Virus record (IMG/VR): IMGVR_UViG_3300037193_000252
Location: 1 to 34,563 of that record
Length of the DNA: 34,563 nucleotides
Direction: 5' to 3' (one strand)
Origin: a virus
This document shows, piece by piece, positions 1-28,167 of the stretch. The first letter of the stretch is position 1. Every line of letters begins with the position of its first letter. Below the pieces are notes generated by a model. It had not been told where the DNA came from. It worked only from the letters and a program-made list of their open reading frames with translations, and made no database searches. The position numbers and the translations under genes are program-made.

Positions 1-279
1 CAGCACCGGCAGGTCGATCTCTGACCCCGGCGCGATGACCAACGTCAGCGGGTAGTCACGAGTCGCACCGACCGGGACCGACCGAAGCGCCCACTTGTTG
101 TGCCGGACATCGTAGGCCGTGTGACCCGCGTTCGGCCCCGCCACCCGCACGTTCACCTGCGGCACCGGCCGGTGGAACATCGCGTCGTGCTCGTACTGGT
201 GGTCCAGCAGCCGCGCCGTAACGTGGCCCTTCGCCTCGGACCCGTACTGCGCGCCGACGACTACCTTGATCGACTTCAT
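1..279 (-). CDS. purZ: PurZ-type N6-succino-2-amino-2'-deoxyadenylate synthase, N-terminal part (cut by window edge)
   Basis: Only the first 93 residues are in the window. The start is the ATG at 279, overlapping the upstream stop by 4 bp (ATGA). The N-terminus reads KVVVGAQYGSEAKGH, the nucleotide-binding loop of the adenylosuccinate synthetase family, followed by VRVAGPNAGHT, the family's GNNAGHT-like motif. Housekeeping PurA has GDEGKGK; here the catalytic Asp is Ser (residue 14), the substitution described for phage PurZ. PurZ joins aspartate to dGMP, giving the succino precursor of 2-aminoadenine deoxynucleotide (dZMP). The second Gly of the loop is Ala and the final Lys is His. It is the last visible gene of a polymerase-led operon. 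A plain PurA is less likely because of the Ser. The C-terminal part cannot be checked here. Confidence 0.9.
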   Translation of the reverse strand, partial: MKSIKVVVGAQYGSEAKGHVTARLLDHQYEHDAMFHRPVPQVNVRVAGPNAGHTAYDVRHNKWALRSVPVGATRDYPLTLVIAPGSEIDLPVL

Positions 280-631: not shown

Positions 632-2692
632 CTACGCCTTGAAGTCCACGCCGCCTGGCACCTGCGGGAACCAGTCCTTCCACAGCTTGTTCCCGAAGTC
701 CGCGCACGTCTTGGCCATTTGCTCCCCGTGCAACGTATCAGGGAGCAGCAGAACCTGCGAGTCGTGGACTGTCAACACGAGGCCAGCCCCGTATTCGTCC
801 ATTCCCTGACCCCGCAGGTACGTATCCGTCGCGTAGATCCAGTCCAACCCGAACTGAGCCAGGTTCCCCTGAACTCGCTGGTTGAACGCCTTGTGCGTCT
901 CCTCGTGCTTGCCGAACCAACGCCGCTCGCCGTTGATCAGCTCCACCCAGCCCTCGCCGTACCGCGCCTGACGGAGCGCCACCCTGCGTGAGGTCTTGTC
1001 GATCGCACGACTCCACGCCGGGAACAGGAAGTTCCAGTCCCGCGTGATTCGGATCGACTCCGGCTCAGTCAGCCGGATCCCCGTTTCCTTGCTCACCATC
1101 TTGCGGAACGTGTCCGGTCCAGCGCCGAACCCGAGGCTGAAGTTGCCTCGCTTACCAACCTGCCTCCACTTGTCGTGGAAGAGCTTGCTGTCGGGATCCA
1201 CGTCCGGGAACAGGTTCTTGGTGGTGTAAGTGTGGAGGTCCTCGCCGTTGCGGATCATCTCCAACATCTTCTCGTCGTGCGCAAACAGCGCGCCAACCCG
1301 TAGCTCCGCCTGTTGCAAGTCCAGCTCCCACAACTTCCAGCGAACGCCACCCATCTCCAGGCGGGAGACCGCAAGCGCGATCAGGTCGCGTGGCGTCAAG
1401 ATCCCCGCGAGGATCCCGTGGTCCGACAGCCGGTAGTCCTGCGGGATCGCCTGCAAGTTGACTCGCTCCACCGAAAACCGGCCGGAGACCGTGCCGGTCA
1501 CCCGGAACCGCGTCCGGAGTCGGCCGTCCGTGCCCATCGCGTTGGCGTAACCGTTGTACCACATGCTGGCAGCGGTCGTTACCTTGTTGTACTCGGCCCA
1601 ACGCTCCGCGTACGGAACCCGGTCCTCCACCATCCGACCCAAGATCTCCGCCGTCAGGCTAGGAGCGCCACCATCCGTGAGCTGGTAAGCCGGGATATTC
1701 GGGTGCTCGACCCCGCGCTTGCTCACTCCCTCCGTGAAGAAGAACGCGTTAGCCGCGTCCCGTGTCGGCGGTTCGAACGGCAGGTTCCGCTCCACTTCAC
1801 CGGCCCGACGCATGCACTCGTCGCCAGCCTCCCGCGACTCGACCTCAGCATATGGCAACCCCCGCCACTCCATCCGCGTGGTCGGCTTGATCGCCTTCTC
1901 CAGACGTCGCAGGATCGCCGCGTAATCCGCGTCCGCAGTCGGCCGGTTGTCGATCTCGTGCACCTGCCACGCCTTGAGCCGGATCGTCAACCGCGCGTCG
2001 ATGTCGGCGTATTCACCGATCACGTCCCACGGCATCAGGTCCCAGCGACCCTTAGGTAGCTTCGCCTTTTGCAGGTACTTCTTCACCTTCGCCTGCTCGT
2101 CGGCCACATCCTCGCCGGTGAGAATGTGCATGACCTCCTTCAATCTAGTAGTCGGCTTGATGCTGTTGCCCAGCGTCATTAACGGCCACAGGTAGTTGGT
2201 CACGTTCATGGTGTCCCAAGTCAGGTGCTCCAGCGCTTCCTCGACATGGAACCCACAATCCGGCCACAGACGCGGAGCCTTGGCCCACATCAGGCAGTCG
2301 AACGGCCCGTTGTGCATGACCAGGCTACCGACCCGCCGCAGCCAGTCATCCAGCGACCTCCATTCGAACGAGTCCAGGTTGTCCGCCTCGGGCCACAACG
2401 CCTCTTGCCCGTTGTCCTCCGGCTTCCCGGCCTTGCCCTGGTCGAACGGCCACGCCACAGATGCGACGTATTCGATCCGGCCGGATGCGTCGATCACTTC
2501 TTCCTGGTACGTCAGCCGGTCACTGAACTCGGCCCATTCGCCTTCGTAGTCGATCCACGCCACCGAGGCTGTCGACGCACGTGCGCCGTCGTCTGGGAAC
2601 AGCCCACTCGTTTCGGTGTCGAAACTCGCCTCGTCCGGCACCAGACCGGTCTTAGCCAGCGCGACGAGATCGCTGGGTCGAAGTCGCTCCAT
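632..2692 (-). CDS. Family A DNA polymerase with 3'-5' exonuclease (DpoZ candidate)
   Basis: A 686-residue replicative polymerase. The proofreading domain has Exo I DTET (D25, E27), Exo II HNGPFD (N128, D132) and Exo III YADID (Y228, D232), so it looks active. The polymerase domain has the T-x-S-G-R and NLQAIP block (about 399-417), motif A DLQQAELR (D458, E463), motif B R510-x3-K514-x3-F518-x3-F522, and motif C VHDS (H643, D644). In E. coli Pol I motif C is HDE and the last O-helix aromatic is Tyr; here these are Ser645 and Phe522. There is no 5' nuclease domain. PolA-type polymerases named DpoZ accompany purZ in aminoadenine phages and prefer dZTP; the shared operon with purZ supports that role. 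AGGAG precedes the ATG. Confidence 0.93.
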   Translation of the reverse strand: MERLRPSDLVALAKTGLVPDEASFDTETSGLFPDDGARASTASVAWIDYEGEWAEFSDRLTYQEEVIDASGRIEYVASVAWPFDQGKAGKPEDNGQEALWPEADNLDSFEWRSLDDWLRRVGSLVMHNGPFDCLMWAKAPRLWPDCGFHVEEALEHLTWDTMNVTNYLWPLMTLGNSIKPTTRLKEVMHILTGEDVADEQAKVKKYLQKAKLPKGRWDLMPWDVIGEYADIDARLTIRLKAWQVHEIDNRPTADADYAAILRRLEKAIKPTTRMEWRGLPYAEVESREAGDECMRRAGEVERNLPFEPPTRDAANAFFFTEGVSKRGVEHPNIPAYQLTDGGAPSLTAEILGRMVEDRVPYAERWAEYNKVTTAASMWYNGYANAMGTDGRLRTRFRVTGTVSGRFSVERVNLQAIPQDYRLSDHGILAGILTPRDLIALAVSRLEMGGVRWKLWELDLQQAELRVGALFAHDEKMLEMIRNGEDLHTYTTKNLFPDVDPDSKLFHDKWRQVGKRGNFSLGFGAGPDTFRKMVSKETGIRLTEPESIRITRDWNFLFPAWSRAIDKTSRRVALRQARYGEGWVELINGERRWFGKHEETHKAFNQRVQGNLAQFGLDWIYATDTYLRGQGMDEYGAGLVLTVHDSQVLLLPDTLHGEQMAKTCADFGNKLWKDWFPQVPGGVDFKA

Positions 2693-2716
2693 TGGTTGCT
2701 CCTCAGGGGAAAGGGA

Positions 2717-3010
2717 TCAGCCCTGGTAGGCGCTGAGCTTGATGTATTCCTCCAGCTTGGCCGGGTCCTTGAAGTCCGGCTCTTCGAACTCGACCGGCGG
2801 AAAGCCCAGATCCATCAAGGCCGCCTGGAGCTCCGCGACCTTCTTGGTCTGTTGCGCCATGATCGCGACACCATAGTTGTGCTTGTGCGTGATCTCACGT
2901 ACCAGCTTTCCGGCTCGCTGCTTCTGGTTGTAGCTGAACCGCTCGATGAACTCGGGGTCCGCGAGCGGTTTGTAGCCGCTGATGTCCGTAGCGTTCGCCT
3001 TCACCGACAT
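2717..3010 (-). CDS. Conserved-looking 97-aa protein of unknown function upstream of DNA polymerase
   Basis: First gene of the polymerase-purZ operon, 24 bp before the polymerase start. The ATG at 3010 has an AGGAG ribosome site and lies about 40-50 bp below a predicted promoter. The protein is soluble, with a basic helical middle (YNQKQRAGKLVREITHKH) and an acidic, proline-containing C-terminal part (GFPPVEFEEPDFKDP). No motif or family is recognised. Its position between the putative origin and the polymerase makes a replication accessory role conceivable. Confidence 0.8.
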   Translation of the reverse strand: MSVKANATDISGYKPLADPEFIERFSYNQKQRAGKLVREITHKHNYGVAIMAQQTKKVAELQAALMDLGFPPVEFEEPDFKDPAKLEEYIKLSAYQG

Positions 3011-3052
3011 CTTGTGTCTCCTTTCATGTGGGCAGGCCGCGCCTGCACCGCC

Positions 3053-3082
3053 AGCCTACCATACCCATTGCCACTCGTCATA
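3053..3082 (-). promoter_or_regulatory. Predicted promoter P1 for the polymerase-purZ operon
   Basis: On the minus strand TATGAC (3082-3077), an 18-base spacer and TAGGCT (3058-3053) preceded by TGG. The spacer carries GGCAATG at the place where the predicted promoters at 11665, 14506 and 18011 carry GCAA. The first start codon (3010) is about 43 bases downstream. The -35 is poor compared with TTGTCT, so the call rests on the shared architecture. Confidence 0.5.
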
Positions 3083-3200
3083 GCTACCCACCCCTGTGCT
3101 GCCCGTTCTGACTCTCCGGAAGATCGCACCTCGGGCACGTGACGTGTGCCCGTGTGTGTGCCCCCGCACACGCGTGCGAGGTGCGCTATATCCGGAGCAT

Positions 3201-3409
3201 CAGAACATACAGAACAAGATATTTTTCTACGCGGAAGAAGAAGAAGAAGAGCATCAGAACAGAGACCAGAACAGAGACCAGAACAAGCACCAGAACAAGA
3301 TGGTGTCGTCTAGTCGCTGCCACCTACTCCCCTAATATAACTGAGAGGGTGCTGTTCTGCCCGCTGTACTGGGCCGCTGTTCTGGGCTCTGTAACATGCA
3401 TCCAGAACA
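3201..3409. repeat. Iteron-like array: nine copies of CAGAACA in both orientations
   Basis: CAGAACA occurs at 3201, 3210, 3255, 3267, 3279, 3291 and 3403, and as its complement TGTTCTG at 3353 and 3378. The four copies from 3255 to 3297 are spaced exactly 12 bp apart, slightly more than one helical turn. An AT-rich stretch (about 3216-3230) lies between the first two and the next four copies. The array is in the only long noncoding region of the window, between primase/helicase and polymerase genes, as expected for a replication origin or a multi-site regulator target. Confidence 0.75.
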
Positions 3410-3432
3410 GCTCCCTGACACAGCACCCTCTC
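3343..3432. other. Nested inverted repeats next to the iterons (possible origin structure or primase terminator)
   Basis: A perfect 12-bp inverted repeat has arms at 3343-3354 (GAGAGGGTGCTG) and 3421-3432. Inside it a second perfect 10-bp pair (GCTGTTCTGG, 3376-3385 with 3402-3411) encloses a 16-base loop and contains two of the CAGAACA sites. The structure begins 15 bp past the primase stop, so it could end that transcript. The rest of the noncoding stretch 3011-3447 holds promoter P1, a 7-bp inverted repeat (CGGGCAC, 3132-3138 with 3146-3152), a GAA-rich purine run (about 3232-3250) and no credible gene. Confidence 0.55.
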
Positions 3433-3447
3433 TCGTGTTACCAAACT

Positions 3448-6090
3448 TTACTTTGAGCCCTGCGCTCTCTCGATTACCAACTCAGCCACCTCGCCAGTCA
3501 GCTTCTTGTAGTACGCGAGCCCGCCGTTCTGGACCCGGACCCGCTTAGACCGAGCCCCGAGAACCTCCGCCTGGTCGGTTAGAGCGATCGCCGTCTGGGT
3601 CCTCTTCTCAATCCGGCCGCCTTGTTCCCGTGTCCAGGCCTGCGCCAACAGGTCCGTGTTGAAATAGACCTCCAGCTCCCGCTCCCCGAACAACGCCTGC
3701 TTAGCCGACCCGCGAGCGTAGTTCTTGACATACGCCGGTGTCGCGATCCCACGCTCGTCGGCCGCAGCCGTCGCCTTGTCCGGGTAGTTCCACTGACGCA
3801 AAGCCCACGGCAAGATCTCCAGCGTCAGAGCGTTGTCACCTTGAACACCGGATTGGGATCCTGCGTCACCGGCAACCCACGCATCAATCCGACTACCGTG
3901 TACCCCGGATCCCTCCCAGGCACTTCGAAGATCGGCAGGAGACGTCGCCAGGAGGGCATCCAGAAGTCGGCCTCCCGTTCTAAGGATAGCGAACTTGTCA
4001 CCGCTTCGTCCAGACCCCACGCGAAGTGCTGGGAGGAGTGACACCGCGTCGTCAGCGTAAAGCAGAGCCGACTTAACGAGCCAGCCTGCAACAGCTGAGA
4101 GACCGTCTGGGTACTTTTCCCGCAGTTGAAGCACATCGTCCCACTGGGGTCGAGAAGCATCCCTAAGCGACATTCGTCCGGTCGGACTTCCAGCCTTGAG
4201 AATAACGGCTCGGTCGAGTAGAGCCTTCTGCGTACCGAGTCCAAGAGCCTCACCGCTGATGACGATAGGCGAGACGATGGTGGCGCTTCTGATTGATTCA
4301 CGGTCTTCCGCCATTTTGGCTAGCGTGCCGCCGGACGTCGCAGCCCGGATCAGCTCCATCAGGTTGGACGGGTCGTCCAGGTCGTCGACCCAGACGATCC
4401 CGTTACGGTGACTCGCCGCGATGTTCCGCAGCGAAGCCATGGTCGGGTTCATCTCCCCGCTCGTGTTGCCGTTGAGCTCGATCATCTGAGCGAAGAACCC
4501 GTTCGTCTTGCCGGACTCGCTCGGAGCCTCGACCGCCATGAACGGGAACAGCGCCGTCCGGCGCTCGATCTGCGGTTTGATCAGACACGCGGCCCACCAC
4601 GCGCCGAACACCGCCGTGACGTCCTCGAAGTGGAAGGTCATGACCTCCGCCAGGACCCGCCGCGCCTCGTCCTCATCCGCACCGAACCCGTAGCGGTGCG
4701 GCGCAACGCCACCAGTCAGCAGTGTGGGGTTCGCGATCACGCCGCACTGGCTGGATTCGAAGACCTCGTCGCCGGTGATCACGCCGTCATGCGTGATGAA
4801 CCCGCCTTCACCGCCGATGATCTCCTCGTCCCAACCCAGCGTCTTCGCTACCTTCACGATCGGCGGGTGCTGAGACTCGAGGTAACGCTGCAACCGCAGG
4901 CCAGGGCTGCCGTCCTTCGGCGACATCTTCACTGGCGGCAGGATCGTGCATGCCATTGCCGAGAAGAAAGACCGGAGCTTCCGGTCGTCACCGAACGTCG
5001 CGCCAGGGATGACCGTGTCGATCTCTTCGACGTCCCCGACACCACGACGCTTACGCCGGATCTTCACCCAATACGTCCGCGCCGCACCTTCCTCGACCAT
5101 CACGCCTTTCGCTACGAGATCGAAATCAGCGTATTCCTCCAAATCGTAGCTGGTCGTGCCGGTCTCGTCCTTGGTAGCGACCTGTGTCATGATCACGGTG
5201 TTGCCGGACTTCAACCAGCCGCACGACGCGTCGAGCGCACGCTCCGGATTGCGTGTGTGCTCACCCCGCCACACCGACCTGACGACCTTGTCGAACTCCG
5301 CGTCGTCCAGCGGGTCACCCATCAACAGGTTGGCCTGGTGGCAGTGCGCCGTGTACAGGTCTTCCATGTTGTGGTAGGTCTTGGCGTAGTGACCGGCCAC
5401 CCGCGTCAGCCAGTCGTTGCGTCCCGTGCCCTCACCGCCAGGCGGCCGTGACAGCAGCGTGGTGAGCATGCTCCTGGTAGCCGCACTGGCCTGCCCAGCA
5501 TCGTCCGTGCCCGCTCCTGACTTAGGCGCGTGCGCACGCAGGGACCCGTCCAGCAGGGCTGGTGGCGCGTCGGCCGCACTGGAAAGCGGCTTTTCCCACG
5601 TGTAAATGTGGCCGGACTCGTGGGTTGACGGTGGCGCTATTACGCCGGTGCCGTCCGCACGCACATCGAAGCTGATCCCGTTTGGGTCGTCCTCCTTGTC
5701 GGGGTGTACTGACCATGAGTGGACCGGATGATCGTCCGGCCAACTGTCAGGGATCTTGAACCAGTAGTGCGTGCCTTTGCTCGTCTTGACCTGAGCGGCC
5801 GAGTCCAGAACTTCGTCGCTGAGCTGTTCCCGCCACCAGGCATCGCCAGCCTCCGTGTCGCAGTCGATGACAATCACTCGCGACATCAGACCTGTCATGA
5901 CCCAATAATTGCGCTGTCCCGAGCCTCCGAACCACTGGGACAGCATCGATTCGGTCTTGACCTTCTGATAGTTCTGCCACTTGACAATCGGCGCTTTCTG
6001 CTTGTACCGCGCCGGTAGGACGTTCAGGCCCCACCCAGCCAGACTTTGTGCCGTAGCCAATGAGTCGACTGGATTGGACAGTTTCGCCAT
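3448..6090 (-). CDS. Primase-polymerase / helicase fusion
   Basis: An 880-residue replication protein. The N-terminal ~185 residues match bifunctional Prim-Pol (archaeo-eukaryotic primase) domains: VIVIDCD (D76, D78), KGTHYWF (H108) and FDVRADGTGVIAPPS (D142), ending in HIYTW. A linker leads to an ATPase with Walker A EAPSESGKTNG (about 521-531) and Walker B GIVWVDDLDD (about 564-573). It should make primers and unwind DNA at the fork, beside the polymerase genes. I chose the ATG at 6090 with an AGGGATGGGG ribosome site instead of a TTG seven codons upstream. It lies 80 bp after the SSB-like gene and is followed by the iteron region. Confidence 0.9.
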   Translation of the reverse strand: MAKLSNPVDSLATAQSLAGWGLNVLPARYKQKAPIVKWQNYQKVKTESMLSQWFGGSGQRNYWVMTGLMSRVIVIDCDTEAGDAWWREQLSDEVLDSAAQVKTSKGTHYWFKIPDSWPDDHPVHSWSVHPDKEDDPNGISFDVRADGTGVIAPPSTHESGHIYTWEKPLSSAADAPPALLDGSLRAHAPKSGAGTDDAGQASAATRSMLTTLLSRPPGGEGTGRNDWLTRVAGHYAKTYHNMEDLYTAHCHQANLLMGDPLDDAEFDKVVRSVWRGEHTRNPERALDASCGWLKSGNTVIMTQVATKDETGTTSYDLEEYADFDLVAKGVMVEEGAARTYWVKIRRKRRGVGDVEEIDTVIPGATFGDDRKLRSFFSAMACTILPPVKMSPKDGSPGLRLQRYLESQHPPIVKVAKTLGWDEEIIGGEGGFITHDGVITGDEVFESSQCGVIANPTLLTGGVAPHRYGFGADEDEARRVLAEVMTFHFEDVTAVFGAWWAACLIKPQIERRTALFPFMAVEAPSESGKTNGFFAQMIELNGNTSGEMNPTMASLRNIAASHRNGIVWVDDLDDPSNLMELIRAATSGGTLAKMAEDRESIRSATIVSPIVISGEALGLGTQKALLDRAVILKAGSPTGRMSLRDASRPQWDDVLQLREKYPDGLSAVAGWLVKSALLYADDAVSLLPALRVGSGRSGDKFAILRTGGRLLDALLATSPADLRSAWEGSGVHGSRIDAWVAGDAGSQSGVQGDNALTLEILPWALRQWNYPDKATAAADERGIATPAYVKNYARGSAKQALFGERELEVYFNTDLLAQAWTREQGGRIEKRTQTAIALTDQAEVLGARSKRVRVQNGGLAYYKKLTGEVAELVIERAQGSK

Positions 6091-6170
6091 GTTCACCCCA
6101 TCCCTGTTCAAAGACGCCGATGGGGACGGACCGCGTCTGCGATCCGCCCCCGCCGGTCAGTAGGCCGACG

Positions 6171-13386: not shown

Positions 13387-14100
13387 TCAGGCCTCGTCGT
13401 CCGCGTCGGCGGCGGTCGCCTTGTTCTTGGCCGGGGCCTTGGCCTTCTCGGCCTTGGCCTTCGCCTTCTCGGCCTCGGCCTCCTTGGCCTTCTCGACGCG
13501 GGCCTGGGCGAGGCCGACGGCCTTCTCGAACTTCGCGACCAGCTTGTCGCTGACGCCGTCCGTACGCATCTTCTTGATCGCCGCGTCCTGGGCCTTCTTG
13601 GTGAACTTGGCCTCCTGGACCTCGGCCACCAGCAGGCTGACGTACTTGGCGTCCATGCCGGGGGCGAACAGGCCGCCCTTGGTCGGCTTGCCGGTGACCA
13701 GGCAGGTGCCGGTCTTCTCGACCTTCTCGCGCTTGGCCTTGGTTTCGGTGGCGGTAGCCATTGATGCTCTCTCCCTTGCTTGGATCATGGCCTGGTACTG
13801 GGGGTCAGCTTCCAGGCGCGCCCGAACACGTCCGTCGCATTCGGACCCGGAGAGGCAGAGCCAGCTTTCGCCGATCTCGTCCTCACGCCGGTTGTAACAC
13901 TTGAGGCAACGCTTCGTGCCGCAGCGTTCCCCTTCCTCGCAGGGACAGATCCGAACTCCCTTGCGGCCGGATCGCGTTCCGCCGGGACAGCGGCTGTGTG
14001 TTCCGGTCGCGCAAAACCCGCAGACGCGTGAGCTCAACATCACCATGTCAAGATCGCTTTTCGTGCCGGGTGTGACGCGGGGAATTGCTGGTGCGGTCAT
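13387..14100 (-). CDS. Cys-rich zinc-binding protein with Lys/Ala coiled-coil tail (237 aa)
   Basis: The N-terminal ~110 residues carry many cysteines (CGFC, SRCPGG, ICPC, ERCGTKRCLKC, WLCLSGSEC), consistent with two or more zinc sites. From about residue 114 a second domain begins (MATATETKAKRE), containing CLVTGKPTKGGLFAPG and ending in a long Lys/Ala/Glu helix and acidic tail. The second domain has its own ATG (13761) with a strong AAGGGAGAGAG site, so a 124-aa product may also be made. The main start is the ATG at 14100 with AGGAGAG. A zinc-binding nucleic-acid protein is the best guess; no precise family. Confidence 0.7.
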   Translation of the reverse strand: MTAPAIPRVTPGTKSDLDMVMLSSRVCGFCATGTHSRCPGGTRSGRKGVRICPCEEGERCGTKRCLKCYNRREDEIGESWLCLSGSECDGRVRARLEADPQYQAMIQARERASMATATETKAKREKVEKTGTCLVTGKPTKGGLFAPGMDAKYVSLLVAEVQEAKFTKKAQDAAIKKMRTDGVSDKLVAKFEKAVGLAQARVEKAKEAEAEKAKAKAEKAKAPAKNKATAADADDEA

Positions 14101-14126
14101 TCGGTTCTCTCCTGCTGTGAGGTTGT

Positions 14127-14156
14127 ATCGTATCGTACGAGTTGGGTCTCGCACAA
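14127..14156 (-). promoter_or_regulatory. Predicted promoter P5
   Basis: Minus strand TTGTGC (14156-14151), 18-base spacer, TACGAT (14132-14127), preceded by ACGA. The spacer has CAA in the position conserved in the other promoters. The ATG at 14100 lies about 27 bases downstream. TACGAT is tandemly repeated here. Confidence 0.5.
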
Positions 14157-14158
14157 TT

Positions 14159-14232
14159 CCCTGTCTCCGGACAGGTGGCACGGGCTTCGAGGACAGGAGG
14201 ACTCGAAACCCGCGCGACCTAGCCGGGTCGCG
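14159..14232 (-). terminator. Cluster of short stem-loops, probable terminator
   Basis: Five bases below the stop of the 75-aa gene, CGCGACC (14213-14219) pairs with GGTCGCG (14226-14232). Further on, CGGGCTTCGAG/CTCGAAACCCG (about 14181-14212) pairs with one wobble, and CCTGTC/GACAGG (14159-14174) forms a third hairpin. Together they separate the unit from promoter P5. Confidence 0.5.
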
Positions 14233-14553: not shown

Positions 14554-15975
14554 TTAGATGATCTCCATGAACTCTGCTGCCGTCAAGGCGCGCATCTGCC
14601 GGTCGGTCTTGGTGGCGAGAAGCCGTTGCTTCTTCATGTCCACCGAGTTGGGAGTGCGGTAGCGCCGGACCGTAACCGGCCGCTCCTGACCCATGCGATG
14701 CACGCGGAATACCGCCTGCTCGTTGCGGTAGCTCTTGAAGCTGTCCTCCACGAAAATCGCCATGTCCGCTTCGACCAGCGTGTGGCCCTCCGCCAGCGTG
14801 TCCAGCGAGCCGACCAGCACTGGTAACTTACCAGACTTGAACGATCTGATCGCAGTCATCCTCTCCCCGGAAGGAATGTCGCCATGGACAATACCGACAC
14901 CAAGCCCCAAGCTCCTGGCCACGTCCGCACACGCCTCCACCGTATCTTTGTAATGGGCAAACACCAACGTCGGCCGGGATCGGTTTTCGAGGTCGTACCG
15001 CAGCTGCTCCAGCTTCCCTCCTCTCGCGTTCCCTTGCATAGTAAGCAACCAAGGACTCGTCGTGATCTTGTGAAGCTGAACGTTCTTGCTTCCCTGGTTC
15101 CACGCGACGACCTCCTGACCTTCGTACTGAGCGTAGAACTCGTTCTTGAGACCGAGGTAGAGCTTCTTGGTAGCGGCATCCATCGGCGTCTTGACGTCCT
15201 GGAAGGTGACTTCAGGCAGGTCGAGGCAATCCTCGCGCCACCGACGCAAGTACTTGCCGTCCAAGTTCTTGCTGGCGAACTCAAGGTAATGTTCACATGG
15301 ATCAGCGGCCGGCCGTGCCAAACATTCCTTAAGCTGCTTCGGCGTACGCGAACACATGAGCAACTCGCCAGCAACCGGCGAGCCGTTACTCCAGCGCGTC
15401 GGCCGACAATCGAACCATTCCTCCGCCCAACGCCAGAACGAGCCAAGATCGCCGCCAGGGTGCGACTCCTGTGGCGAGATCAGCTGAAGTACGCGGAAGA
15501 TCTCGTGAGCCCAGTTCGGAAACGGCGTGCCGGACATCGCCAGCATCTGGTCCGAGTGGCGCGCGATCTCCAGCGCTGCCCACGACTTCATGTTCGGCCG
15601 CTTCGGCGTGTCGCGGCCCTTGACCACGTGGACCTCGTCGAATACGACCGCGTCCCAGCGGCCCTTGACCTTCGGCCGCAGGACCTTGACGGGGGCCATG
15701 CCCTTGCCCTTCGACCGGAAGTCGTTTAGTTGGGAGTAGGGGACGACGGTCCACTTGCTGGGGTCGGCGGACCACTTTTCGAGCTCGTCTTCCCAGGTGC
15801 CGCCTTCAATGACGAGTCCGGGGGCAACGACCAGATTCCGACCTCCGTCGAAAGCCTCGATCGCTTGACGCGTCTTACCCAGACCCGGTTCGTCAGCCAA
15901 AAGCCCGCGTCGAGCGCGTCGGATCCACTCGATTCCTTCACGCTGGTGTTCCTTCAGCGGCAGGCTGCTCGTCAT
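14554..15975 (-). CDS. SNF2/DEAD-box superfamily II helicase
   Basis: A 473-residue ATPase: Walker A DEPGLGKT (28-35), motif II DEVH (113-116), motif III SGTPF (148-152), and motif VI QAVFRVHRMGQERPV (from about 420), the SNF2-type Q-x2-x-R-x2-R-x-GQ. The C-terminal RecA lobe includes TLVFAHYKDTVEA and VGIVHGDIPSGER. Such phage helicases remodel or unwind DNA in replication or recombination. The ATG at 15975 lies inside the end of the XRE gene (38-bp overlap) behind GGAAGGGAAG, so the two are coupled. Length is typical of the small phage members. Confidence 0.9.
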   Translation of the reverse strand: MTSSLPLKEHQREGIEWIRRARRGLLADEPGLGKTRQAIEAFDGGRNLVVAPGLVIEGGTWEDELEKWSADPSKWTVVPYSQLNDFRSKGKGMAPVKVLRPKVKGRWDAVVFDEVHVVKGRDTPKRPNMKSWAALEIARHSDQMLAMSGTPFPNWAHEIFRVLQLISPQESHPGGDLGSFWRWAEEWFDCRPTRWSNGSPVAGELLMCSRTPKQLKECLARPAADPCEHYLEFASKNLDGKYLRRWREDCLDLPEVTFQDVKTPMDAATKKLYLGLKNEFYAQYEGQEVVAWNQGSKNVQLHKITTSPWLLTMQGNARGGKLEQLRYDLENRSRPTLVFAHYKDTVEACADVARSLGLGVGIVHGDIPSGERMTAIRSFKSGKLPVLVGSLDTLAEGHTLVEADMAIFVEDSFKSYRNEQAVFRVHRMGQERPVTVRRYRTPNSVDMKKQRLLATKTDRQMRALTAAEFMEII

Positions 15976-16201
15976 CGTCTTCCCTTCCGTACGCAGCGAC
16001 GAGGAACTTCTCGAAGTCTTGATGGTACTGACCGATCTTCCACGACATCGCTTGAGCTATCAGTTCCCAGCCCATGGTCTCCGAGATCTTGAGCATCTGA
16101 GCCAGGCTCGGCGTGCGATCGCCAGAACGCCACCGGCTCACGGTCGTGTGCTGGACATCAAGCTTCTTAGCGATGTCCACGTTTGAAATCTTCGCGCGCA
16201 T
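15938..16201 (-). CDS. XRE/Cro-type helix-turn-helix regulator (87 aa)
   Basis: Residues about 8-40 (DIAKKLDVQHTTVSRWRSGD) are a clear helix-turn-helix, followed by SLAQMLKISETMGWEL and an acidic tail. It may repress or activate phage promoters. The start chosen is the ATG at 16201 with AGGTG upstream; an ATG ten codons earlier (16231) is possible but lacks a ribosome site. An AT-rich GATATTAAAA (16237-16246) just upstream could be its -10. It is coupled to the helicase gene. Confidence 0.8.
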   Translation of the reverse strand: MRAKISNVDIAKKLDVQHTTVSRWRSGDRTPSLAQMLKISETMGWELIAQAMSWKIGQYHQDFEKFLVAAYGREDDDEQPAAEGTPA

Positions 16202-16305
16202 TTCGCACCTGTCTTGTGTAGTAGGTGACATTCGTGTTTTAATATCCTTGTGCGACCTTCGGGGCTCCGTTGGTGCGGCGTGGGATGGGTTGCCACCTCA
16301 GGGGA

Positions 16306-16350: not shown

Positions 16351-17613
16351 TCAGCCGTCGAGCTCCCGCCGGAGGGCTTCCCGGTCGTTGAACAGCGACA
16401 GACCACGTTCGTAGCGGAAGTTGTTCACCAACCCCAAGATCCGCGTGTAATCCCAACCATCGCTGCGAGCCCACAGACCCGCTTCAACTTGCGCCACCGC
16501 GTACGGAAGACCGAGGCCTTGTAGTCGATACTGCATCAGCGCCGAGTCCTGTGACACATCGACGTGCTTGACCATCTGCGCCGTGTTGACCTCCAGGCCT
16601 TCAAGGATCTTGATCGCCTCGCTGGTCATGAACGCCACTAGATGCGACAGGTCCGGCACGGCGACTCGCTCGACAGACGAGTTCGAAATGTCGCGCTCAT
16701 GATGCAGCGCACCGGCGGACTCTGCGACCGCCGCGAAGTTCGAGCGCACCAAGCGTCCCATTCCGCTGAGGCGTTCCGAGCCGATTGGATTGCGCTTATG
16801 CGGGATAGCGCTGCTGCCAACCCGATCACGTGCCGCTCCCTCCGCGAGCTCTCCGACTTCCGTCCGGCTGCTCAGCCGAACCTCCAGCGCGATCTCTTCG
16901 ACCAGCGAGGCCACCGCGACCAGCCAGCCCGCCCACAAGACCATCCGCTGTCGCGGGATGACCTGTGTGGACGGCAGCATGACAACAGAGTCGCTGGCCC
17001 ACTGCCTAGCCGCTGCCAACCCGACTTCCCGGCCGAGCAGCCGCATGCTGCCGGTCGCACCGGGAGTCTTGAACACAGCCAACTCGTTTTGTAGGATCCC
17101 AGCTTGGTGGCGCAGCGCTGAAATCGTCCCGTTCCAGACAAAGAAACGCCACCCTGCCCGCGTCGGCTCCGCTGCCTGGCCATGTGTCCGGCCGACACGT
17201 GGCGTGTCCTTGTATTGCAGATGTAGGCGGGACAACACCTTTGCCAGCGCGATCAACCGCCGTTCGACCAGTTCGACCACCGTCCGTAGCTGGAGGAACA
17301 GCACGTTGTCGACCAGGTCGGACGAGGTCAGTCCGCGATGGATCACCGACTGCGCGTGGCTGTCCATGTTCTTGGTCCATGTGTACAGGAACGCCACCAC
17401 ATCGTGGCCGGTCGCCTCCTCCTGCTCCGCGATCTCGGGCATCGTCGGAACGCGGAACTGCCGGATGTGCCGGAGTACCTGGTCGGTTACCGTCTCGTCG
17501 CCGAGCTCCCGCCGCGCTTCAAGATACGCCAGCTCGATGTCGCGGTAGTGCTGGAGCCGGTAGTCGTCGCTGAACAGCGTTGTGATGAATGGGTCGCGGT
17601 ATCGCTCGATCAC
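16351..17613 (-). CDS. purB: Adenylosuccinate lyase (phage PurB)
   Basis: A 420-residue member of the fumarase/aspartase superfamily, slightly shorter than typical bacterial PurB. Visible family motifs: GHDVVAFL (H70), HRGLTSSDLVDN (H92), RTHGQAAEPT (H144, the general acid), GSSAIPHKRNP (S267/S268, the catalytic serine loop) and HERDISNSSVER. It removes fumarate from succino-purine nucleotides. In a PurZ phage the expected substrate is N6-succino-2-amino-dAMP, yielding dZMP, a step usually left to host PurB. The start is GTG at 17613 with GGAGG upstream, overlapping the previous stop by 4 bp. It is last in a three-gene operon from promoter P2 and ends at a strong terminator. All catalytic motifs look intact. 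Confidence 0.95.
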   Translation of the reverse strand: MIERYRDPFITTLFSDDYRLQHYRDIELAYLEARRELGDETVTDQVLRHIRQFRVPTMPEIAEQEEATGHDVVAFLYTWTKNMDSHAQSVIHRGLTSSDLVDNVLFLQLRTVVELVERRLIALAKVLSRLHLQYKDTPRVGRTHGQAAEPTRAGWRFFVWNGTISALRHQAGILQNELAVFKTPGATGSMRLLGREVGLAAARQWASDSVVMLPSTQVIPRQRMVLWAGWLVAVASLVEEIALEVRLSSRTEVGELAEGAARDRVGSSAIPHKRNPIGSERLSGMGRLVRSNFAAVAESAGALHHERDISNSSVERVAVPDLSHLVAFMTSEAIKILEGLEVNTAQMVKHVDVSQDSALMQYRLQGLGLPYAVAQVEAGLWARSDGWDYTRILGLVNNFRYERGLSLFNDREALRRELDG

Positions 17614-19580: not shown

Positions 19581-20330
19581 CTACTGGTCAGTTGCCACAC
19601 AAGCCCATATGGTCTTCGAGGCCGGTGGCGTTTCGCTCGTGTCCGCGATCGTTACTTTCTGGGCGGCAAATCCGGTCGGGCAGGTGGCGGGATCGCCAGG
19701 CGGACCCTGCGGGCCAGCTGGTCCCGCTGGACCTGTCGGGCCAACCTCGCCTTGCGGACCCGCAGGACCAGCAGATCCCGCCGGACCAGCCTCGCCCGTT
19801 GCTCCCGTAGCTCCGGTGTCCCCAGTGTCACCTTGTGCACCTTTCTCGCCCTGTTCTCCCTGAGGCCCTGCCGGTCCCTGCGGCCCGGTAGCGCCGATGC
19901 AGCGCGTGGGTTCCAGGAGGCACCGGGGAGAGTTACCGGGAAGCCCCTGCGGACCGCGCGGCCCCTGCGGTCCAGGCGGGCCGACCGGTCCCTCCGGCCC
20001 GCGTTCACCCTGGAGGCCCGGAATACCTTGGATTCCCTGCGGTCCTTGAACCACCTTCTCCGCCGGTTGTGACACCGGCTCCTGGCACTTCGGGTCGTTC
20101 TTCGGAGCCGTCTTGCAGTATTCGAACTGATTGATCTGCTTATCGTTCGACTGCGCCAGCTTGGTTACGTCGCCGCGCGACTCGATCCAGAACACCGTCG
20201 AAACTACGGCGAGCAGCAGAATCGCCACCGCCGCGACAGTTCCGAAAATCCACGCGCGCCGCACGTATTTCGTGCGGTCCAGGTGGCGCGCAACGTCATC
20301 CTGGATCGGCCGCTCGTTCTCGTCGCTCAT
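19581..20330 (-). CDS. Membrane-anchored collagen-like protein (249 aa)
   Basis: Residues 1-25 are charged, about 26-48 ([20 protein letters not shown]) form one membrane segment, then a short Cys-containing spacer ([11 protein letters not shown]). Two collagen blocks follow: 13 Gly-X-Y triplets, a break with CLLEPTRC, then 23 triplets (GAT GPQ GPA and on). A 35-residue C-terminal end has two more cysteines. Collagen-like repeats are common in phage tail fibres and trimerise; the N-terminal membrane anchor is unusual for a virion fibre and suggests a type II membrane protein facing outward. ATG at 20330 overlaps the previous stop (ATGA). Confidence 0.85.
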
Positions 20331-24550: not shown

Positions 24551-25453
24551 CTACATCTGCGCATCGCGCCAGAAAATGTTGACGAATCCAGTGTCTGCAA
24601 CGGAACTTGGGGCAAATTGTACAGAAGTAGACCCACTCTGCGCAAGACAATCTTCCGGAAGGTCGGAGTTGAGCGCCAGCGTGTAGTACCGGTCGATACC
24701 CGCGAGCGTCACCGTGCCCGTCCGAGCGTCAGCGATGAGTACCTCTCCGGCAGCCAGGTTCAGCGTGAAGCCCAGCGTCCAGTTCCCGAACGCGTTGACG
24801 TAGTAGGGGCCGGTCAGCGGCCCGTTAAATTCAAACCGGAGCGGCGTGTCCACCAATCCGGCGTTGACGATCGACCCGGACCCTGGGACGCCAACCCCCC
24901 AGTCCAGGCCGACGTCCCAGGTCAGGCCCGGAGCCCAGGTCAGACCGCCGGACGAGCTCGGGACGTTGAGCGTGATCTCGGACTCGTTGACCGAGTACTT
25001 GCGCGGGTCGGTCGCCTTCCACTGGATGCTCGCCTCGGGGTAACCGCCGAAGTAAGGCCGCTTGATCGGCCAGGTTCGACCCACGATCCGCGCGAATGCC
25101 ATCATCGTCTCGCCGTGTTGACGGATCGTCAGCGGCAACTCAGCCTGCTGGATCTGCGTCCGACGCAAGAACTCCTGGCGAAGCGTCGGGAACAAGTCCT
25201 TCGGCGACCAGATCTGCGTGTCGAACGTGATGATGCGCGGCTGGCCGTACGCCGTGCCGGGGAAATCCCCGTGAGCGTGCGGCTTCGGCGTGTCCGACAA
25301 GTCGACGCCAGGGAGATCGTCCCAGCCGGTGAGACCCTTGTAGCCGAAGTACGTGTCGATACCCATCACAAGGCCGTCCCATTGGATCTGGGTGTCGGCG
25401 TAGATCAACTCATCAGGGCCGACCGTCCCCTGCGGCGCGTAGATCAGGCTCAT
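24551..25453 (-). CDS. Distal tail protein (Dit-like, 300 aa)
   Basis: Starts at the ATG at 25453, overlapping the tape-measure stop (TGATG). The N-terminal half has the usual Dit layout (TQIQWDGLVMGIDTYFGYKG, PRIITFDTQIWS, FARIVGRTWPIKRPYFGGY), and the second half contains LRFEFNGPLTGPYYVNAFGN and a galectin-like C-terminal beta domain. It would form the ring at the end of the tail tube. Position directly after the tape measure supports this. Confidence 0.82.
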   Translation of the reverse strand: MSLIYAPQGTVGPDELIYADTQIQWDGLVMGIDTYFGYKGLTGWDDLPGVDLSDTPKPHAHGDFPGTAYGQPRIITFDTQIWSPKDLFPTLRQEFLRRTQIQQAELPLTIRQHGETMMAFARIVGRTWPIKRPYFGGYPEASIQWKATDPRKYSVNESEITLNVPSSSGGLTWAPGLTWDVGLDWGVGVPGSGSIVNAGLVDTPLRFEFNGPLTGPYYVNAFGNWTLGFTLNLAAGEVLIADARTGTVTLAGIDRYYTLALNSDLPEDCLAQSGSTSVQFAPSSVADTGFVNIFWRDAQM

Positions 25454-28167
25454 CAGCCCCGTCCCTTCGTGATAAGCCACCACTCCTCGGCGATTTCCTT
25501 CGGGTCCTTGTCGTTCGCGTGGTACTCACCGATCAGCGGTTGCGTGTTGTTCTGGATCTGTCGGATCAGCTCGCTCATCAGCGCGATGAATTCGTCCCGC
25601 GACAAAGCGCCACCAGCACCGGTGACGCGCGATGCGACGTTCGGGGTCAGCGCGAGCTGGCTGTCGGCCTGCGCAACCGTCGGAATCTGGCCGGTGAACC
25701 CGCCCAGCGTGGACAGGGCCTGGTCGATGCCCTTCTCCAATTCGGAGTTGAAGCCTTCCATGATCCACTGACCGGCCGGACGGAGCAGCTTCTTATCGAC
25801 TTCTTCCGGACCCTTGACCTTCGGAATCTTGTCGGTCAGTTCCTTCAGCTTGGCGGTGACCTTGCCGATCATGCCCTGAATGCCGTCGATCAGACCCTGG
25901 ATGATCGCGCGACCGGCGCTAATCAGCCACGACCCCGCGCCGGAGAAGATACCCTTGATGCTGTCGACCACCGAGCTGACCTTGCTCTTGGCCGCGTCGA
26001 TCGCCTTCCCGATCACGTCCTTCAGCGAGTTCCACACCGACGAGGTCGTGCTCTTGATGCTGTTCCAGATGCTGGTGACCTTATCCTTGACCGCGTTTAC
26101 GGCCGAGCTAACCGGACCCTTCACCGCGTTGATCGCTGTGGTTACCGCGCTCTTGATAGCGTTCCAAACCGACGTGGCTGCCGACTTCAAGGCATTCCAG
26201 GATCCGATCACAAATCCTTGGATCGCACCCCAAACCGCCCTTGCGACCCCGGAGATAGCATTCCAAGTTCCGACTAGGAAGCCCTTAATAGCGGCCCAGG
26301 TTGCCGTTACCACCTGCATCGTGATCTTCAGCCAGCCCTGGATGAGAGCGAGCGCCACCCCCACGCCAAACTGGATGACGGCGGCGACCAGCCCCCACGC
26401 CGCCTTGATCAGTTCACCGAACACACCCCAGAACGCTCCCCAAATCGCCGTCACCACGTTGATGAACAGCTTGATCGGGGCGAGGAAAATCTGGATCCCG
26501 GTCGAGATGATACCGGCGATGATGTTGACCGCTGCCGAGACCGTCGATGTGATGAAGTTCCACACCGATACGAAGAAGTTGCCGACCGCCTGGACTCCGG
26601 TCTTAATGCCGTTCCAGATCGTGGTGAAGAAGTTGGCAACCGCCCGCACTCCGGTCATCAGACCGTTGAACCCAGCGACGAAGAAGCCAGCGAAGGGACC
26701 GGCAAACCACGCGCCGACTGCCTTCATGAACCCCCAGATCGCGTTCCAGGTGTTGATGAAGAAGTTGCGGAATCCTTCGTTGGTCTTCCACAAGTAGACA
26801 AAGGCCGCCACCAACGCGATGATCGCAAGCGCGATCGCGACAAACGGGTTCAGAGCCGCAACCGCGTCGAACGCCGCCATAGCTGCCGTCGCCGCGATCA
26901 CCGCGACCGTGAATGTCCCGATGCCGACCACCAAGGCACCCAGCACCGACGTGTTCATGTTGCCGAGGAAGTCGAAGAACCTGATCAGCGCGTCCAGGAC
27001 CGGCCCGCCAATCGGAGCCAGCGCCGCACCGATGTTCCCGAGCGCGTTGCTGACCGCCCGGAACAGGTCAATCACCTTCGGGCCGGTCTCGCGGACGTAG
27101 TTCAGGAAGTCTTGGAACTTCTTCGACGTCGACAGGCTCTTCGCCCAGTTGGCCCAAGCCGCAGTGATGTGTTCGATCCCGCCGAGGAACTCTTGCGCGA
27201 ACGGCGCAAACGCGCCAGTTATCCCGCCGATGAACTGGATCAGGTTCCCCATGATTTGGGTAACCAGCTTGAACACCGGAATGAAGTTCGCGGTCAGGAA
27301 CGCCACCACCTGCTTAAACGCAGGCGACTGTGCGAATAGGATCATCTGGGTAACGAGTTGCGATACCGCAATCGTAACGACGTCGACCAGCGGCTTGATC
27401 TGCTGAAGCACGGTTGCAATCAACCGCATGCCGCCGCCGATGACGGCATAGATGCGGTTGTTCGACCCAAAACTCTTGAACGCGTCGCTGAGGTTATCCT
27501 GCTCGGCCTTCAACGCACGCATCTGCGGCGATAGCTTACTCATATCGCCGCCAGCTTCCTTCACAGCCTTGGTATAGTTCTTCCAGGCCGGGATCGCAAT
27601 CAGCGCAAACGCACCGAGGCCCGCCGCGAGAATGCTGGTGGCGCTCACTAATGCGCCGACCGCAGCGGCCGCCGAAAGCGCCACCGGCACAACCGCCGGT
27701 AGGATCGCAATCAACGCGCCGATAGCGAGGGTCGAGCCCTGGATGTGGTTGCGTTCGCCCGCCAACCGTCGCAGCGCCGACACGCCTTCGTCGGTGTCTA
27801 CCTCGACCGTGACCGTCTCGTCCGGAATCGCCTTGAGCTCAGCTTCGAGCCTGCCGATGGAGGCGTCATCAATATCGACCTCGATGGTGACGGTCTCGTC
27901 GCGGATCTCGTCCAGACGAGCCTGAAGCTCGCTGATCGCGTCTGCATTGTCGACGTCCAGCTCGATGTTGACCGTCTCGTCACCGATAGCGTCGAGCTTG
28001 GCCTTCAGCTCGTCCAGCTTCTCCAGGCCCTCGATTTCGAGCGGGATCTTGATCTTCTCCTGCTCGAACTTCTTGGCCATTGCCATGGCCTCTTTGAGGT
28101 CCTTATTGAAAGGCGAGCGGTCCAGGGTAAGCGTACCCTCAATAGCGCCAGCGTTGAAGTTCGCCAC
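25453..28167 (-). CDS. Tape measure protein (904 aa)
   Basis: The longest gene of the window. Residues about 45-130 hold three 27-residue repeats with DETV at 63, 90 and 117. Hydrophobic stretches lie near 145-195 and 410-465 (VAIALAIIALVAAFVYLW). From about 460 the protein has many Trp-centred repeats about 11 residues apart (SVWNAIKS, SIWNSIKS, SVWNSLKD), typical of tape measures. It sets tail length and takes part in DNA injection; at about 1.5 angstrom per residue the tail would be near 135 nm. Starts at GTG 28167 behind GGAAGGGTGG. Confidence 0.93.
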   Translation of the reverse strand: MANFNAGAIEGTLTLDRSPFNKDLKEAMAMAKKFEQEKIKIPLEIEGLEKLDELKAKLDAIGDETVNIELDVDNADAISELQARLDEIRDETVTIEVDIDDASIGRLEAELKAIPDETVTVEVDTDEGVSALRRLAGERNHIQGSTLAIGALIAILPAVVPVALSAAAAVGALVSATSILAAGLGAFALIAIPAWKNYTKAVKEAGGDMSKLSPQMRALKAEQDNLSDAFKSFGSNNRIYAVIGGGMRLIATVLQQIKPLVDVVTIAVSQLVTQMILFAQSPAFKQVVAFLTANFIPVFKLVTQIMGNLIQFIGGITGAFAPFAQEFLGGIEHITAAWANWAKSLSTSKKFQDFLNYVRETGPKVIDLFRAVSNALGNIGAALAPIGGPVLDALIRFFDFLGNMNTSVLGALVVGIGTFTVAVIAATAAMAAFDAVAALNPFVAIALAIIALVAAFVYLWKTNEGFRNFFINTWNAIWGFMKAVGAWFAGPFAGFFVAGFNGLMTGVRAVANFFTTIWNGIKTGVQAVGNFFVSVWNFITSTVSAAVNIIAGIISTGIQIFLAPIKLFINVVTAIWGAFWGVFGELIKAAWGLVAAVIQFGVGVALALIQGWLKITMQVVTATWAAIKGFLVGTWNAISGVARAVWGAIQGFVIGSWNALKSAATSVWNAIKSAVTTAINAVKGPVSSAVNAVKDKVTSIWNSIKSTTSSVWNSLKDVIGKAIDAAKSKVSSVVDSIKGIFSGAGSWLISAGRAIIQGLIDGIQGMIGKVTAKLKELTDKIPKVKGPEEVDKKLLRPAGQWIMEGFNSELEKGIDQALSTLGGFTGQIPTVAQADSQLALTPNVASRVTGAGGALSRDEFIALMSELIRQIQNNTQPLIGEYHANDKDPKEIAEEWWLITKGRG

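Follow-up and report, generated by a model that had tools for sequence, protein, structure and literature searches.

A candidate iteron origin of replication 3' of a PrimPol-helicase gene in a phage encoding DpoZ and PurZ

Results

Gene neighbourhood of the noncoding gap

The window analysed in this study is an entire virus record of 34.6 kb (IMG/VR IMGVR_UViG_3300037193_000252, 34,563 nucleotides). Its replication genes are arranged on the minus strand in the order Sak4-like gene, SSB-like gene (DUF669), PrimPol-helicase gene, noncoding gap from 3447 to 3011, 97-aa ORF, dpoZ and purZ (Table 1). The gap had originally been placed between primase/helicase and polymerase; the primase side stands, and the other boundary is the 97-aa ORF, with the polymerase gene beyond it. 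The identity of DpoZ was confirmed by its profile score, and the presence of both DpoZ and PurZ provides the genes of a Z genome. A PurB-like adenylosuccinate lyase is encoded at 16351-17613 on the minus strand (TIGR00928, E 2.5e-79, under the curated cut-off; PF00206), and such a phage lyase together with PurZ and DpoZ would give the phage one more step of the Z pathway.

Within positions 2600-3700 no sigma-70-like promoter was found, and a terminator search there gave a match at chance level only. A repressor-like HTH ORF lies at 15938-16231. A 904-aa ORF (25453-28167) resembles a tape measure protein, as judged by eye and not by profile. An ORF at 19581-20330 (minus strand) possesses collagen-like Gly-X-Y repeats.

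Table 1. Coordinates of the replication genes and of the elements of the proposed origin region in the window
Feature	Position	Strand	Details
PurZ	1..279	-	3' part lost at contig end; phrog_1211, E 2.2e-22, 93-aa fragment
DpoZ, aminoadenine-incorporating DNA polymerase	632..2692	-	NF038381, 599.6 bits, cut-off 350
97-aa ORF	2717..3010	-	context, without conservation
Proposed origin region	3011..3447	.	entire noncoding gap
Iteron set D	3095..3110	-	two one-mismatch copies, TGTGCTG and CGTTCTG
Hairpin 2	3114..3196	.	z -3.2; with alternating purine-pyrimidine tract (3165-3178, CGCACACGCGTGCG)
Iteron set C	3201..3216	+	two copies 9 bp apart, adjoins AT-rich stretch
AT-rich stretch, candidate melting site	3217..3251	.	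AGATATTTTTCTA, then GAA purine run
Iteron set B	3255..3297	+	four copies, exact 12-bp period
Hairpin 1	3343..3432	.	z -5.9; 13-bp perfect arms, encloses set A; about 15 nt beyond primase stop
Iteron set A	3353..3409		3353 (-), 3365 (-, one mismatch), 3378 (-), 3403 (+)
PrimPol-helicase, putative initiator	3448..6111	-	887 aa; PrimPol (residues 22-184), PriCT-1, SaPI-Rep/Cch-type AAA+ helicase, C-terminal winged helix

Iterons, AT-rich stretch and hairpins

A total of nine exact and three one-mismatch copies of CAGAACA are found in the gap, the latter at 3095, 3104 and 3365 (TGTACTG). The word occurs 16 times in the whole window, where 2.9 occurrences are expected; nine of these fall within 3201-3409 and the remaining seven are isolated and outside the gap, where alone the word is clustered. 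Four copies follow an exact 12-bp period (3255, 3267, 3279 and 3291). When the gap was dinucleotide-shuffled 2000 times, no 7-mer reached more than four copies. The 40-mer with the lowest GC content of the window (3187-3226) is inside the gap as well. A 13-bp perfect inverted repeat (3343-3355 and 3420-3432) forms the arms of hairpin 1. No match was obtained in the Rfam search. The second-strongest k-mer repeat of the window probably comes from an ORF at 13387-14181 (minus strand), whose C-terminal half is lysine/alanine-rich and repetitive.

The original prediction of a repeat feature, with nine CAGAACA sites, four of them at 12-bp spacing, an AT-rich stretch and inverted repeats, is borne out by these counts. 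Its limits, given as 3195-3432, are too narrow, since the degenerate repeat pair of set D and hairpin 2 sit to the left of 3195 and the feature really spans about 3090-3432. Read in gene direction, the array begins about 40 bp beyond the PrimPol-helicase stop, immediately 3' of the gene, and proceeds from set A within hairpin 1 through set B, the purine run, the AT-rich stretch, set C and hairpin 2 to set D. Sets A/B and C/D thus flank the AT-rich positions 3217-3229.

Place and layout of the array in related phages

An alignment query built from ten primases retrieved 77 IMG/VR loci, and the comparison set comprised 50 non-redundant loci, window included. Single-protein pattern scans of viral contigs with DpoZ and primase queries had found no relatives, and the same ten-primase alignment query found nothing in bacterial genomes. 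A scan of viral contigs for paired CAGAACA returned noise only. The DNA of the gap itself is not conserved, because BLASTN against phage records found no homologue. The SSB-like gene is present in 72 and the Sak4-like gene in 75 of the related loci; the HTH ORF has a homologue in L157 only. Homologues of the 97-aa protein were found in none of the fetched related loci, and this protein, earlier suggested for a binding test, is therefore an unlikely binder or initiator.

The module is also present in complete phage records. Arthrobacter phage Wayne and its relatives share the gene order of the window, and their gap, about 380 bp long, is in the matching place; in Wayne it contains ten copies of GTTACA in an arrangement similar to that of the window. 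The 350 bp past the primase stop are the top window of 7-mer repetition of the locus in 23 of the 50 non-redundant loci, and the strongest array spans or adjoins the 3' end of the PrimPol-helicase gene in 30. In the closest relative, L139, the top array begins 300 bp further on; L150 has its strongest array ahead of the polymerase, and L197 and L205 have theirs on the 5' side of the primase gene. No clear array was seen after the primase gene in several relatives, e.g. L141, L147, L164, L181, L186, L189, L196, L207 and L211. In L129, L130 and L131, which are Microbacterium and Micrococcus phages, an inserted reverse-strand gene, of unrelated kinds in different phages, separates the array from the primase stop.

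About 20 different repeat words were found among the relatives, including CAGAACA, TAGAACA, TGGAACA, GTTACA, GTAACA, GCTACA, GATTACA, GGATACA, GGGTACA, GGGGTAAC, CATATGAC, GCCACATA, GAAGACC and TGCTAGAAC. Same-orientation neighbours are mostly spaced by 8-9 or 11-12 bp. Oriented site maps of phages with different words gave 1287 matches, compared with 1141 +/- 13 for maps with shuffled gaps and orientations. Conservation of the repeats in related phages, a check suggested at the outset, thus holds for place and layout and fails for the word. In phage FireCastle nine exact copies are found in the array and none elsewhere in 43 kb, and the copies of L213 are likewise restricted to the array. The arrays are found beside differing downstream genes and are absent from other promoters of FireCastle and L213. 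A scatter over several promoters, as in stoperators, was seen neither in the window nor in FireCastle.

Hairpins are only marginal across the relatives and not significant (p 0.07). A GTG/CAC tract was considered as a priming site because ORF904 starts at GTG, and was rejected when GTG/CAC density proved not significant across relatives (p 0.19). About one third of the 50 loci are enriched in alternating purine-pyrimidine tracts at p < 0.05; near the array, 3' of the primase, such tracts reach up to 43 nt in L147, L160, L170, L179 and others. In L168, L169, L171 and L172 the first 700 bp or so 3' of the primase contain tandem repeats whose period, 18 bp, departs from that of the 8-12 bp arrays elsewhere; these may be either long iterons or repeats within coding sequence.

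Word change and the C-terminal wing

The gaps of the Arthrobacter Korravirus phages can be aligned, and many homologous sites switch their word in concert to GTTACA, GTAACA or GCTACA. GTTACA goes with the C-terminal wing VGGS(S/T/A)QRF, GTAACA (with some GATACA) with VEGKAQRY or VAGHVQRF, and GCTACA with VNGKSQRF; some sites and phage L153 are exceptions to this match. From residue 145 onward, the primases of these phages vary most in their C-terminal part. Over 31 phages, iteron similarity tracks winged-helix identity after correction for helicase-core identity (partial r 0.26, p 0.002, partial Mantel test), a kind of test that is liberal and whose signal comes mainly from close Korravirus pairs, being weak below 60% core identity (r 0.07). 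The reverse test on the same 31 phages, core identity given winged-helix identity, gave p 0.94.

Streptomyces phage Hiyaa carries a second array 43 kb away; the two are 92% identical in their iteron columns against 61% outside them, and the duplicated array is probably under selection. No primase gene adjoins this second array (L216, NC_048139.1, 79.8-80.2 kb; compare L133). The same layout with a different word in each phage is expected if the enzyme and its docking site evolve together. An evolving enzyme-site pairing, in which each lineage would keep the layout and change the word, is the best explanation of these sequence comparisons.

Domains and predicted fold of the PrimPol-helicase

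The N-terminus belongs to the PF09250 Prim-Pol family (E 2.1e-21), and matches to PF08708 and phrog_5177 were also found. A weak profile match to pRN1 ORF904 was obtained (E 0.014). DUF927 is present in 12 of the 50 relatives, and the protein of the window is without a DUF927 match. The AlphaFold2 model of residues 300-887 (50 sequences; pLDDT 91.6, pTM 0.86) resembles SCCmec Cch (5dgk, Z 20.7) and SaPIbov1 Rep (8tch, Z 18.4; VIA, model residues 1-585), and the next fold family is MCM at Z 12.1. Taken in isolation, the C-terminal 198 residues (pLDDT 89.5) finish with the order strand-helix-helix-strand-strand-helix. They align with winged helices such as PadR/LmrR at a Z score of about 5, and with SaPIbov1 Rep at Z 4.5 across 151 residues. 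By its predicted fold, with a C-terminal winged helix, the protein is an initiator helicase of the SaPIbov1 Rep/Cch type.

Discussion

The noncoding gap is very probably a cis-acting origin of phage replication, with the PrimPol-helicase encoded upstream as the putative initiator that would act through its winged helix on the iterons. The original prediction of an origin with an initiator protein is strengthened by the conserved position and geometry of the arrays, the concerted word change, the duplicate array of Hiyaa and the SaPI Rep/Cch fold, which join the anatomy and statistics of the gap as observations. In the best reading, the initiator would be a PrimPol-fused, SaPI-Rep-like, self-loading protein of tailed phages that mostly carry a PurZ/PurA-family gene.

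If the array is an origin, its iterons might still be read by another protein, DUF669/SSB-like, Sak4-like or a host factor, which would then load the helicase. A dedicated initiator is the usual reader of iterons, and the SSB-like and Sak4-like genes recur in 72 and 75 of the related loci; neither product, however, resembles a sequence-specific binder of double-stranded DNA, whereas the PrimPol-helicase has a terminal winged helix and matches SaPI Rep and Cch in both core and C-terminus. Word similarity also tracks the winged helix, not the core. We consider a separate reader quite unlikely. Still less probable is a transcriptional role, in which the array would be an operator for the 97-aa/dpoZ/purZ operon or would end the primase transcript. 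The array does lie between two co-directional genes and upstream of the replication operon, hairpin 1 comes just past the primase stop, and the HTH ORF could supply a repressor. Against this, the promoter and terminator searches gave nothing above chance, the arrays accompany varied downstream genes and spare the other promoters of FireCastle and L213, the HTH protein recurs in a single related locus, and 8-12 copies across about 300 bp around an AT-rich stretch would make an unusual operator.

The two long hairpins would suit a site for packaging, partition or recombination, or a hairpin element to which no initiator binds. Among the relatives, however, it is the iterons that are conserved and not the hairpins as a class, and the location of the array follows the primase gene, which leaves such a role extremely improbable.

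For the origin with the PrimPol-helicase as its initiator, we infer the following course from binding to DpoZ handover. The winged helix would bind the CAGAACA iterons, and the AAA+ domain would form hexamers at both flanks of the AT-rich stretch, on sets A/B and on sets C/D. These hexamers may melt the stretch and then unwind outward, while the PrimPol domain would lay primers that DpoZ extends.

We give an even chance to a broader proposal, that a fast-evolving specificity code operates in the SaPI-like origins of a large clade of actinophage-like tailed phages, mostly with a PurZ/PurA-family gene, in which the layout is fixed and each of about 20 words is matched by its own winged helix. 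Under such a code the replicons of neighbouring phages would be mutually exclusive, since each word would answer to its own initiator, Hiyaa would have two origins, and the initiators of those members that do carry Z would open Z-containing DNA with three hydrogen bonds. The natural word changes among close relatives offer a ready test set for the reading of iterons by the winged helix.

PurZ/PurA-family genes are present in 25 of 35 related records, many of which are fragments, and such a match is no proof of PurZ because the profile also matches bacterial PurA. Loci without purZ in the 4-kb flank had suggested an array unrelated to Z genes, an idea dropped on this whole-record count. The same count suggests that this type of origin is common in phages that probably carry a Z genome. 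No Z-specific feature was found in the origin. From the gene content, the relevance of a Z genome to the opening of the CAGAACA origin, raised in the original prediction, is plausible, and the system would permit origin opening in Z-DNA to be measured under defined conditions.

Comparison with known replicons

The origin of the window would, in the best reading by analogy, work like that of a SaPI. The C-terminal domain of SaPI Rep is reported to recognise a multi-iteron origin directly downstream of rep (PMC7581432), and PICI origins, which lie 3' of the initiator gene, consist of two iteron sets around an AT-rich region (PMC6092414). The window shares with the SaPI/PICI pri-rep-ori the helicase fold, the C-terminal domain of DNA-binding type, the place of the origin directly 3' of the gene and the iteron sets on either side of an AT-rich stretch. 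It differs in the archaeo-eukaryotic-type PrimPol fused to a Cch/SaPIbov1-Rep-type helicase and in its four distinguishable iteron sets. The carrier is also a tailed phage, which encodes a polymerase and structural genes of its own, rather than a helper-dependent satellite island; DpoZ and the 904-aa ORF, tape-measure-like by eye, are on the record, and the window is not a PICI because the carrier has its own polymerase.

SCCmec Cch provides the nearest solved fold, although it is a stand-alone helicase encoded by a chromosomal cassette. Cch2 uses its C-terminal domain to bind direct repeats that follow its gene (PMC7581432), as proposed here, but has only three iterons. ORF904 of pRN1 is likewise a single protein that comprises a PrimPol, a helicase and a winged helix, with a putative origin just 3' of the gene (PMC4234260), and the PF09250 domain agrees with its N-terminus; the pRN1 origin, however, is a 100-nt stem-loop without iterons and the helicase is SF3, whereas the gap has nine iterons and hairpins that are not conserved as a class. 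The alpha protein of P4 resembles the proposed initiator as a single protein that places a winged helix on origin repeats, unwinds and primes (PMC4234260), and differs in its TOPRIM-type primase, the N-terminus here being Prim-Pol. A SaPI-fold initiator would thus be found here in tailed phages that use a PrimPol, many of them probably with a Z genome.
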